Assembly: GCA_963170165.1 (NCBI GenBank)
Contig: CAUJGQ010000034.1
Location: 1 to 58,100 of the forward strand
Origin: Chloroflexota bacterium
GTDB taxonomy: Bacteria > Chloroflexota > Dehalococcoidia > CAUJGQ01
DNA: 58,100 bases
Direction of reading: 5' to 3'
The notes under the pieces were generated by a model, which was given only the letters and a program-made list of their open reading frames with translations, searched no databases and was not told where the DNA came from. Below, piece by piece: positions 1,325 to 4,402 of this stretch. A program made the position numbers and the translations under genes. The first letter of the stretch is position 1, and each line of letters begins with the position of its first letter.

Positions 1325-1510
1325 ATGGCAGCGTTTGCAGGGACGGCGGCGGACATCCGGCCGCTGGGGCCGGAGCCGGTGACGAGCCCGGTAGGGACAA
1401 TTGGCCCTTGGCCGCCACAGGACCCGCCTAACGAATCTAAAAGAAGTGGCGGGAGCGCATGGGAGTCGAACCCACCCACGACGGCGCGGGCCGCCGTGCA
1501 ACGGTTTTGA
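1325..1510 (+). pseudogene. Start of a phage structural-type gene cut off at the selC junction
   Basis: An ATG at 1325 follows AAGGAGCAGCACAA, a good ribosome site. The first 35 or so residues (beginning MAAFAGTAADIRPLG) look like the N-terminus of a phage capsid or decoration protein, expected directly after a scaffold gene. The frame then runs into the 3' end of the tRNA-Sec gene on the other strand at 1447 and stops inside it at 1510, so the last 20 codons are antisense tRNA and not protein. I interpret it as a gene truncated by integration or by loss of the rest of the element. The phage identity of the fragment is inference. Confidence 0.4.
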
Positions 1511-1544
1511 AGACCGCGGAGACCACCGGGCCCCCTCCGCTCCC
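1447..1544 (-). tRNA. selC: tRNA-Sec (UCA anticodon)
   Basis: On the minus strand the sequence starts GGGAGCGG and ends CGCTCCC-G-CCA, giving a 7-8 bp acceptor stem with encoded CCA at 1447-1449. The anticodon loop is CTTCAAA on a CGGT/ACCG stem, so the anticodon is TCA, which decodes UGA. A long variable arm (ACGGCGG ... CGCCGTC) and a T arm with GGGTTCGACTCCC follow. Length (98 nt), long acceptor and extra arm match bacterial tRNA-Sec and not a suppressor or tRNA-Ser. Its presence means the organism inserts selenocysteine; a likely user is the rhodanese at 36969-37820. The 3' end coincides with the end of the prophage-like segment. selA, selB and selD are not in the window. Confidence 0.93.
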
Positions 1545-1580: not shown

Positions 1581-2558
1581 CTAAGGATGAGGCGCAGCAG
1601 CCGGTGCCGCCGCAGCGCCCGCTTCACGACTACTGGACTCACCACGCTCCTGGTCGCTCAGATAGTGGTCCGCGCGGATGGCAGCGGTGACACCGTCACC
1701 CGTGCTGGTGGCCACCTGCCGTGCAGAGTCAACCCGTACATCGCCCGCCGCGAACAGCCCTGGCACCGCTGTCTCCATCCACCGGCTCACGGGGATGTGG
1801 CCGCCGGTATCGAGCTTCAACATCCCGCCAAGGAAGCCGGTGTTGGGGTGCTGTCCGATGAAGATGAACACTGCCCCTGCGGACAGCGCACGTCTCGCAC
1901 CGGTCTTGACATTGCGGAGTTGGGCGCCGGTGACGCTGTCCTCACCCTCAATCGCCTCAACCACCGTGTCCCAGATGAAGGAGATCTTGGGTTCGGCGAA
2001 GGCGCGCTCCTGCAGGACCCTGCTAGCGCGTAGCGTGTCCCGCCGGTGCACGATGTATACGGCACGGGCGTAGCGGGTGATGAACAGCCCCTCGTCCAGA
2101 GCTGCGTCACCCCCGCCCACGACGATCACGTCCTGTCCGCGGAAGAACGCGGCATCACAGGTGGCACAGTAGGAGACGCCGCGACCGGTGAGCCGGTCTT
2201 CGCCGGGGACGCCCAGGCGGTTGTAGTCGGCCCCGGCGGTGATGATGACAGCGCGGGCCGGCGCATCTCCAGCAGCGGTCCGCAGCCGAAAGCCTCCCGC
2301 CACCTGCTCCAGCGCGGTGACGTCGGCGTACGACGTTTCCAGGCCATACTTCTCCGCCTGGCGGAGCATGGCCTGTCCCAGGTCAAAGCCGTTGACGCCG
2401 TCCGGGAATCCGGGATAGTTCTCGACCAGGCTGGTGAGCGCGATCTGTCCGCCGGTAACCTTGCGCTCCAGCAGTAGGGTTCGGCGGGTGGCACGCGCCG
2501 CATACAGGCCGGCCGCCAGACCGGCCGGCCCGCCACCGATGATCGCGATGTCGTACAT
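1581..2558 (-). CDS. trxB: Thioredoxin-disulfide reductase
   Basis: 325 residues. This cytoplasmic FAD/NADPH flavoenzyme reduces thioredoxin. The N-terminus has the FAD dinucleotide motif IIGGGPAGLAAGLYA (residues 5-20), the redox-active pair CATC in SYCATCDAAFF (about residues 130-140), the NADPH motif VVGGGDAALDEG, and the C-terminal FAD motif GLFAAGDVR. The ATG at 2558 was chosen over an in-frame ATG six codons upstream because the Rossmann strand starts right after it and GAGGCAGCT precedes it. The last 25 or so residues are an Ala/Pro/Ser-rich tail beyond the usual family end. It lies 81 bases downstream of trxA on the same strand, so the thioredoxin pair is probably co-transcribed under the promoter at 3050-3072. 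Confidence 0.93.
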   Translation of the reverse strand: MYDIAIIGGGPAGLAAGLYAARATRRTLLLERKVTGGQIALTSLVENYPGFPDGVNGFDLGQAMLRQAEKYGLETSYADVTALEQVAGGFRLRTAAGDAPARAVIITAGADYNRLGVPGEDRLTGRGVSYCATCDAAFFRGQDVIVVGGGDAALDEGLFITRYARAVYIVHRRDTLRASRVLQERAFAEPKISFIWDTVVEAIEGEDSVTGAQLRNVKTGARRALSAGAVFIFIGQHPNTGFLGGMLKLDTGGHIPVSRWMETAVPGLFAAGDVRVDSARQVATSTGDGVTAAIRADHYLSDQERGESSSREAGAAAAPAAAPHP

Positions 2559-2639: not shown

Positions 2640-2966
2640 CTAGCCGAGCACAGCATCCAGCCGCTTCTTCAGGTCGCTCTTGGGCCGAAAGCCGACGATC
2701 TGCCCCTGCATCTCGCCACCCTTAAAGACCATCAGCGTGGGGATGCTGCGGATGCCGTAGCGGGAGGAGACACCGGGATTCTCGTCAGTGTTGAGCTTGT
2801 AGAAGCTGACCTTCCCCTCATACTCGCCGGCCAGCTCTTCCACGATTGGGGCCACCATCCGGCAGGGGCCACACCAGGGCGCCCAGAAGTCCACAAGTAC
2901 CGGCGTGCCGGACTTGATTACATCGCTCTCGAAGCTCTGGTCGGTGACTTCCTTGACTTTCGCCAT
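2640..2966 (-). CDS. trxA: Thioredoxin
   Basis: 108 residues. A single thioredoxin fold with the canonical active site WCGPC in VDFWAPWCGPCRM (about residues 25-37) and the cis-Pro loop RSIPTLMVFK. It is a general cytoplasmic disulfide reductant recycled by the adjacent TrxB. The ATG at 2966 has GGAGAAGGCGAG just upstream and gives the usual family length; the frame is open further upstream, but that part crosses the promoter. It is divergent from the CsoR-type regulator gene, with the operator between them, so its expression is probably linked to copper. Confidence 0.95.
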   Translation of the reverse strand: MAKVKEVTDQSFESDVIKSGTPVLVDFWAPWCGPCRMVAPIVEELAGEYEGKVSFYKLNTDENPGVSSRYGIRSIPTLMVFKGGEMQGQIVGFRPKSDLKKRLDAVLG

Positions 2967-3049
2967 CTCGCCTTCTCCGCTTTGTGCTTGCCGCACCGGC
3001 GCCCGCCCGCGCGAATTGACGGCAGCTACCGGGTCCACTACCATCCTTC

Positions 3050-3072
3050 CATACCCCCCTAGGGTATGTCAA
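3050..3072 (-). promoter_or_regulatory. trxA promoter with embedded CsoR-type operator
   Basis: CATACCCCCCTAGGGTATG (3050-3068) is a perfect 7-bp inverted repeat around a 5-base spacer and matches the TACCC-N-GGGTA layout of CsoR/CstR operators. On the minus strand a consensus -35 TTGACA (3072-3067) abuts and overlaps it, and a weak -10 (AAGGAT, 3048-3043) lies 18 bases on, so the operator fills the trxA promoter spacer. The csoR-type gene starts 41 bases away in the other direction, so autoregulation is also likely. Confidence 0.72.
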
Positions 3073-3108
3073 GGGCCGGCCGGCGCGCGGGCCGAAAGGG
3101 TAGGCGCC

Positions 3109-3399
3109 ATGCAGCAGGAACAGACCGAGCTCACCGTCACGCGCCTCCGCCGGATCGAAGGGCAGGTGCGCGGGCTCCAGCGCATGATAGAGGAGCACCG
3201 CGAGTGTGAGGATGTGCTGACCCAATTGATGGCGATCCGCAGCGGGCTCGAGCAGGTGTCGCTGCTCCTGCTCAATGAGCATGTTGAACACTGCCTGCTC
3301 GGTGAGGCAGGTGTCAGTCAGGAGACGATGCAGGCCTTGCAGCAAACGTTGAGGATGTGGGCTCGGTTCGGCGCACCCGCCTCCCAGTTGCCGGATTAG
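3109..3399 (+). CDS. csoR: CsoR-type copper-sensing repressor
   Basis: 96 residues. This all-alpha CsoR/RcnR family protein contains the signature LRRIEGQVRGLQRMIEE. The metal ligands are at C33, H58 and C62 (spacing C-x24-H-x3-C), the same pattern as the Cu(I) site of Mycobacterium CsoR; a sulfide-sensing CstR would lack the His. Apo-repressor binds the operator and Cu(I) releases it. The start codon ATG at 3109 is the first that keeps the family length; an upstream extension of the frame covers the operator. No copper ATPase or chaperone lies beside it, and the adjacent divergent gene is thioredoxin, so copper-linked thiol homeostasis is the inferred role. Confidence 0.88.
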   Translation: MQQEQTELTVTRLRRIEGQVRGLQRMIEEHRECEDVLTQLMAIRSGLEQVSLLLLNEHVEHCLLGEAGVSQETMQALQQTLRMWARFGAPASQLPD

Positions 3400-3412: not shown

Positions 3413-4402
3413 CTACCGGCCGCTGTGCCTGATGGCGCCGACCACATCGCCCGCCACCGCATCGCGAGCCGCGCGCACGGCGTTGAAGATCGCATGTGCG
3501 TCGCTGCGTCCGTGCGCCACAATCGACACGCCCTCCACGCCCAGCAGCGGCGCGCCGCCGTATTCACGGTAGTCAACCCGGGCGCGGACGGTGCGGAATG
3601 CCGGGCGCAACACGGCCGCCGCCAGCTTGAACTGCAGCTTGCTGGTGAGCGCAACGCGCAGCTCCTCCAGGATGGACTCGGCTACTCCCTCTGCCATCTT
3701 GATCGCGACATTGCCAGTAAAGCCATCGGTGACGATGACATCGGCCATGCCACTGGGGATGTCCTTGCCTTCGATGTTGCCGGTGAAGTTCAGCCCTGGC
3801 AGATCCTTCAAGGCGCTGTGCGTCTCCTGGATCAAGCTGCTGCCCTTACTGGCCTCCTCCCCGATGGAGAGCAGCGCCACCCGCGGATTGCGCCAGCCGA
3901 GCGCACGCTGAGCATACGCCTGTCCCATGCGGGCAAACTGGACCAGGTATTGTGGCTTGGCCTCGGCATTTGCGCCGGCATCCAGGATCAGCACACGCCG
4001 GCCACCCAGGGCCGGGAACACCGCCGCCAGCGCCGGCCGCTCGATGCCGCGGATACGCCCCAACACCAGCACTGACGCGGCCATCATCGCACCGGTGTTG
4101 CCGGCCGAGACGAACGCCGCTGCCCGCCCCTCCTTGACCTCACGCAGCCCGACGTTGATACTCGCGCCTTTGCGACGGCGGACCGCCTCTGCGCCATGTT
4201 CGTCCATGGCGATCACGTCGTCGGCCGGCACGACGCTGACGCCTGCTGGTACATCGGTCAGCGCTGCCAGCACGCCCTGGATGGCGTCCGGCCGGCCGGT
4301 CAGTGCCACTTCGACCCCCAGACGCCGCGCCGCCGCCACCCCGCCCCGCACCACCTCCACGGGCGCATGATCTCCCCCCATCGCGTCCAGCGCGATCCGC
4401 AT
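3413..4402 (-). CDS. plsX: Phosphate acyltransferase PlsX
   Basis: 329 residues. PlsX makes acyl-phosphate from acyl-ACP for the PlsY route of phospholipid synthesis. Visible family motifs are ALDAMGGDHAP at the N-terminus, FVSAGNTGAMMAAS in the middle, ILDAGANAEAKP, and VTDGFTGNVAIKMAEG near residue 225, then EYGGAPLLGV near the C-terminus. Length is normal. It is the last gene of a minus-strand run with the methyltransferase 4 bases upstream, and it converges on the CsoR gene with a 13-base gap. The usual partners fabH, fabD and acpP are absent here. Confidence 0.95.
   Translation of the reverse strand: MRIALDAMGGDHAPVEVVRGGVAAARRLGVEVALTGRPDAIQGVLAALTDVPAGVSVVPADDVIAMDEHGAEAVRRRKGASINVGLREVKEGRAAAFVSAGNTGAMMAASVLVLGRIRGIERPALAAVFPALGGRRVLILDAGANAEAKPQYLVQFARMGQAYAQRALGWRNPRVALLSIGEEASKGSSLIQETHSALKDLPGLNFTGNIEGKDIPSGMADVIVTDGFTGNVAIKMAEGVAESILEELRVALTSKLQFKLAAAVLRPAFRTVRARVDYREYGGAPLLGVEGVSIVAHGRSDAHAIFNAVRAARDAVAGDVVGAIRHSGR

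Follow-up and report, generated by a model that had tools for sequence, protein, structure and literature searches.

A perfect inverted repeat lies between a CsoR-family repressor gene and the divergent thioredoxin gene trxA in this Dehalococcoidia genome, and its core recurs at all 81 trxA-linked csoR loci found among the class homologues whose flanks were examined. On balance we favour a reading in which csoR encodes an autoregulated, CstR-like repressor that frees trxA-trxB upon oxidation or persulfidation of its two cysteines. The broader proposal – that an undescribed ‘thioredoxin-CsoR’ subfamily keeps the main thioredoxin system of mostly aerobic Dehalococcoidia within a closed thiol-redox or sulfane-sulfur feedback loop – we consider evenly balanced between right and wrong.

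The window (the whole stretch of DNA analysed, 58,100 nucleotides) is contig C34 of a 4.41-Mb genome in 213 contigs, and its relevant features are listed in Table 1. The csoR product scores 86.6 bits against PF02583 (cut-off 22.8), which places it in the CsoR/RcnR family; alignment puts Cys33, His58 and Cys62 at the three first-shell positions of the family, Glu32 at second-shell position A and Ala76 at position B. Identities as FrmR (NCBIfam score 43.1, cut-off 133) and RcnR (34.1, cut-off 138) were rejected. trxA and trxB are presumably co-transcribed. The convergent plsX gene belongs to the conserved synteny in many loci (tblastn) and is not thought to be under the control of this operator. 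A selenocysteine tRNA gene (ARAGORN, anticodon TCA; 1447-1544, minus strand), the window's only tRNA, is located just downstream of trxB.

Table 1. Genes, candidate operator and promoter elements of the csoR-trxA region, in window coordinates.
Feature	Position	Strand	Basis
trxB, thioredoxin reductase, directly downstream of trxA	1581..2558	-	TIGR01292 351 bits, cut-off 343.45
trxA, thioredoxin (WCGPC), divergent from csoR	2640..2966	-	TIGR01068 130.7 bits, cut-off 96.8
Presumed csoR -35, TTGACG	3016..3021	+	Sequence; TTGAC/TTGAA on csoR strand in 61/81 loci
Presumed csoR -10, TACCAT	3039..3044	+	Predicted from sequence; 17-bp spacer
Presumed trxA -10, AAGGAT	3043..3048	-	Predicted from sequence and base frequencies in relatives; 18-bp spacer
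Candidate operator CATACCC-N5-GGGTATG, common to the divergent csoR/trxA promoters	3050..3068		Sequence; core conserved in 81/81 loci
trxA -35, TTGACA	3067..3072	-	Sequence; last two bases within the repeat; TTGAC <=12 bp 5' in 80/81
csoR, CsoR-family repressor gene, 96 aa	3109..3399	+	PF02583 E 1.5e-24; residues by alignment
plsX, convergent with csoR	3413..4402	-	tblastn synteny; name from sequence resemblance

The repeat, CATACCC-CCCTA-GGGTATG, has two perfect 7-bp arms and is the sole match in a scan of the 58-kb window allowing up to two mismatches (0.12 expected from shuffles). A perfect 7+7 palindrome is by itself not rare in 58 kb; we regard this one as more than chance because its core is conserved between csoR and trxA across the class, and a chance repeat is ruled out by the presence of TACC-N7-GGTA in 81/81 trxA-linked loci. 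The initial annotation had described an exact repeat of CsoR form at these coordinates, overlapping a -35 element on the trxA strand (the final two bases of TTGACA, at 3072-3067, belong to the repeat as well) and standing near a divergent Cys-His-Cys csoR gene, and all of this holds; the distance to csoR, given there as 41 bases, is 40, counted between the repeat and the ATG at 3109. The presumed trxA -10 hexamer is weak in the window but is the best at the register conserved in relatives, where TAnCAT is the tendency. The transcript start of csoR predicted from TTGACG-N17-TACCAT would presumably fall at the edge of the repeat.

Of 393 genomes of the class Dehalococcoidia searched for the regulator, 136 gave a match at E <= 1e-12. 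Flanks were examined for 91 homologues, comprising the window, G001 (a family relative) and 89 of the highest-ranking matches (to about E 5e-18); genome G328, among the better class matches, was left out of this set, and three further loci (L013, L014, L016) bring the collection to 94. Two other genomes of the class (1.4-1.5 Mb, one contig each) have 26 and 27 reductive-dehalogenase matches, in line with its assignment to Dehalococcoidia. trxA is divergent from csoR in 81 of the 91 (>60 bits with the window's own TrxA as query), with trxB near trxA in most of them, and the 81 genomes are spread over 12 families; the other ten are nine Cys-Tyr-Cys proteins and one gene truncated where its contig ends (L078).

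Each of the 81 csoR-trxA intergenic regions contains TACC-N7-GGTA, mostly as TACCCC-N3-GGGGTA, with flanks that drift. On the trxA strand TTGAC is found within 12 bases 5' of the core in 80 loci (none of the 81 with shuffled flanks), abutting the core in 55 and lying four or five bases away in 25. The csoR strand has TTGAC or TTGAA 18-45 bases 5' of the core in 61 of the 81 loci, versus three after shuffling, the control in both cases being one simple (mononucleotide, not dinucleotide) shuffle per locus. Gene order, operator-form repeat, conservation and promoter placement are thus directly observed, and the window repeat is one instance of a class-wide, two-promoter candidate operator. At one locus (L090) TACCCCGGTGGGGTA is present twice within a single csoR-trxA intergenic region, and each copy may be the operator of one of the two promoters.

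What signal the repressor reads is suggested by its sensor residues. In the family fingerprint based on MtCsoR, the first shell X-Y-Z is Cys36, His61 and Cys65, and the second-shell positions A and B are Tyr35 and Glu81, a Tyr and Glu through which Cu(I) brings about DNA release in characterised members (PMC4235346). X-Y-Z is Cys-His-Cys in all 81 aligned trx-linked class proteins, the first shell of the copper sensors, and the two cysteines at X and Z are also those of the CstR type. This complete set makes copper a possible signal: Cu(I) bound at Cys33'-His58-Cys62 would release the repressor, and thioredoxin would be induced to protect or repair copper-attacked thiols. We think this rather unlikely. 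It is favoured by the CsoR form of the operator and by the best-scoring solved relative, the copper CsoR 4m1p (63.5 bits, versus 55.0 for SpCstR), but position A is Tyr in 0/81 and position B is Glu or Asp in just 9/81, so that the residues coupling Cu(I) to DNA release are missing or mostly missing; Glu follows X in 79/81. Nor does the motif imply copper, because the sulfane-sulfur sensor ScCsoR of Streptomyces coelicolor (SCO0620) uses the same operator form, persulfidation of its Cys37 releasing ATACC-n6-GGTAT sites in a response that needs Cys66 (PMC7533328).

The retained His58 departs from the CstR pattern. Non-His residues at Y are seen in 7mq1 (SpCstR, Asn) and in the genome's own CstR-like protein (Ser), and to our knowledge CstRs generally have no His there. 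Since His58 is kept in 81/81 although it is not needed for persulfide sensing, a metal may be bound.

The window gene is one of three PF02583 genes in its genome, the others being on contigs C159 and C40. At C159 (L014, 4379-7630) a csoR with ‘YC’ and HxxxC precedes a P-type ATPase that carries two heavy-metal domains and looks like CopA by eye; this unit is likely the copper operon of the genome. At C40 (L013, 4747-7570) a CstR-like gene (Cys, Ser, Cys) lies near a metallo-beta-lactamase/rhodanese protein that appears CstB-like by eye, suggesting a persulfide-detoxification unit. With copper efflux and, probably, persulfide detoxification each under its own regulator, the window csoR would be a third, for thioredoxin. 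The separate Tyr-type csoR-copA unit counts against copper sensing in the window, as do the neighbours of the trx-linked genes: copA adjoins the other csoR, whereas the window gene is flanked by trxA, trxB and plsX, and a CopA query found no copper ATPase beside the trx-linked csoR genes at the class loci examined.

In the whole genome the 19-bp form occurs once, and a search for further copies near copA or copZ, as proposed in the initial annotation, yielded no second perfect copy; the site at the copA-linked csoR is degenerate (TACCCCTAGGGAGTA). The perfect TACCC-N5-GGGTA core is found twice, each time just upstream of a CsoR-family gene, the second being the CstR-like gene of C40; this count is not above chance but the location is. 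Cross-talk between the C40 site and the window operator is possible. Allowing up to one mismatch gives 66 sites, versus 86 for a control pattern, and we therefore claim no wider regulon.

Homologues elsewhere are informative about the ligand His. A wider scan of genome contigs (80 named loci) placed TrxA within 3 kb in eight, all without Tyr at position A, although two of the eight (L106, L107) are apparently among the class loci counted above. A search of the phylum (400 genomes, 30 loci) recovered TrxA beside non-Tyr homologues in other arrangements, either csoR followed by trxA on one strand (L210, L211, L213, L216) or trxA followed by csoR (L215, L225, L227), and one gene divergent from trxA with Gln for the His (L208). 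Other trx-linked homologues have Tyr (L127, L160) or Arg (L175) in its place and keep both cysteines. Thiol chemistry is preferred over copper mainly because in trx-linked homologues the cysteines stay and the His does not, although within the class, unlike among some of these homologues, the His of trx-linked proteins is invariant. Nine class CsoR-family proteins also have Tyr in place of the ligand His (L092, L097, L098, L100-L105); most of eight such loci inspected by eye are near molybdopterin oxidoreductase/formate-dehydrogenase-like genes.

A maximum-likelihood tree of 114 rows, divided at its midpoint, separates the trx-linked proteins, the Cys-Tyr-Cys group, SpCstR (7mq1) and the genome's own CstR-like protein from the copA-linked CsoRs, GtCsoR, SlCsoR, MtCsoR and InrS. 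Support at the root fork is moderate, not firm (93/78), and L160, a trx-linked protein with a long branch, is an exception, being placed with the copper CsoRs. The trx-linked class proteins thus appear, with moderate support, to group with the persulfide sensor CstR, for which SpCstR is the sole reference in the tree. Among the rows of the tree, Tyr at position A is present in 48/49 copA-linked and 0/41 trx-linked ones; of these 41, 27 are drawn from the 81 divergent class proteins and 14 are others.

The carriers of the trx-linked gene are mostly COX1-bearing. COX1 (PF00115) is present in 222 of the 393 class genomes, including 74/81 trx-csoR carriers versus 148/312 others (Fisher p 3.7e-14, without correction for kinship), and matched in 0/9 genomes with the Cys-Tyr-Cys form. 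This association fits an oxidant-facing role; however, organisms with COX1 possess copper enzymes too, so that it speaks for copper sensing as well and does not separate oxidant from copper. The initial annotation had predicted copper-responsive thioredoxin and thioredoxin reductase expression, and one part of that survives, namely a CsoR-type operator that would be placed for control of trxA(-trxB) and is conserved across the class. The copper signal itself is not well supported in view of the missing Tyr, the mostly lost Glu, the separate csoR-copA unit and the apparent grouping with CstR.

Improbable, too, is a Cys-His-Cys site responsive to Ni(II), Zn(II), Cd(II) or an aldehyde, on the model of the family members InrS and FrmR. 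The ligand pattern is reported not to predict the metal, and InrS, which lacks the Tyr, binds Ni(II) via the same three residues (PMC4235346), but in the tree InrS sides with the copper CsoRs, the window's own neighbours include neither a metal exporter nor a formaldehyde gene, and the regulated genes are thiol reductases. There is very little to commend a repeat that is simply a promoter feature or a site for another regulator, with CsoR acting elsewhere: it does overlap promoter elements, and its operator role is read from sequence, but the core is kept in 81/81 loci while the flanks drift, and cores resembling it precede both of the genome's other CsoR-family genes as well as many csoR genes linked to copA.

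For the preferred thiol-responsive, CstR-like reading we infer repression, autoregulation and a thiol-type inducer. The reduced repressor would occupy 3050-3068, where it would fill the space behind the trxA -35 and overlap the csoR transcript start, and would so repress both trxA-trxB and its own gene. Oxidation or persulfidation of Cys33 and Cys62, which are opposed across subunits in solved relatives, would make the repressor let go; TrxA and TrxB would then be made and would reduce thiols or sulfane sulfur, whereupon the repressor, itself reduced once more, would reclose the promoter – a negative-feedback thiol homeostat.

If true, this would provide a concrete thiol-stress switch for a large, mostly uncultured class, and would extend the CsoR family from metal and sulfide clusters to the core thioredoxin system. 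The natural series Cys-His-Cys, Cys-Tyr-Cys, Cys-Arg-Cys and Cys-Gln-Cys, with or without the second-shell Tyr, could also illuminate how one fold shifts between copper and thiol chemistry. The initial annotation had considered a CsoR-thioredoxin pairing to be less described than one with copper genes. In the literature searched, which is incomplete for subscription papers, we found nothing on a CsoR-family regulator devoted to trxA-trxB and no described thioredoxin regulator in Dehalococcoidia. A term search of the gut CsoR meta-regulon paper (PMC4938975) gave no mention of thioredoxin.

Several characterised systems share parts of this arrangement. CstR of Staphylococcus aureus, YrkD and SpCstR resemble the window CsoR in fold family and in the positions of the two sensing cysteines, and SpCstR is on the same side of the tree, although it has Asn where the trx-linked class proteins have His. 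In CstR-type regulators sulfane sulfur relieves repression, and it is this behaviour that we propose for the window CsoR; their targets are sulfide/persulfide oxidation genes, unlike the dedicated trxA-trxB of the window. The YrkD cluster of Bacillus licheniformis is described as including a predicted thioredoxin, YdfQ (PMC9918477). ScCsoR is likewise a two-cysteine, CsoR-like sensor that is autoregulated through its ATACC-n6-GGTAT operator, as proposed here, but it controls a persulfide dioxygenase, a rhodanese and a sulfite transporter, and the window regulator thioredoxin instead (PMC7533328). The B. subtilis CsoR regulon is reported to be induced by allicin and polysulfane (PMC6943732).

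TTHA1953 of Thermus thermophilus is a CsoR-family protein which, as proposed for the window CsoR, has a thioredoxin-led target promoter: the thioredoxin gene soxW (TTHA1422) is the first gene of a TTHA1953-controlled promoter and is 113-fold up in the mutant (PMC10318464). Its disulfide-linked form binds less DNA, but NaHS is without effect, which counts against the preferred reading; it differs in being a sox pathway regulator that is not adjacent to its targets and has the motif TACNNTACNNNNGTANNGTA (PMC10318464). The Cu(I)-sensing CsoRs of Mycobacterium tuberculosis, Geobacillus and Streptomyces lividans have the same fold, Cys-His-Cys set and GC-rich TACCC/GGGTA-type operator, and differ in having the second-shell Tyr (and Glu) and copper efflux genes as neighbours.

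Thiol sensing with thioredoxin feedback is also known from unrelated regulator families, including sigma-R/RsrA, which controls trxBA in Streptomyces. Another is E. coli OxyR, a thiol-sensing regulator of trxC and grxA with thioredoxin feedback (PMC6831875). The proposed switch would be a functional analogue of such OxyR- or RsrA-type control, and a natural counterpart of a synthetic circuit built in E. coli, in which a trxA-trxB operon under CstR control subjects sulfane sulfur to negative feedback (PMC6831875).
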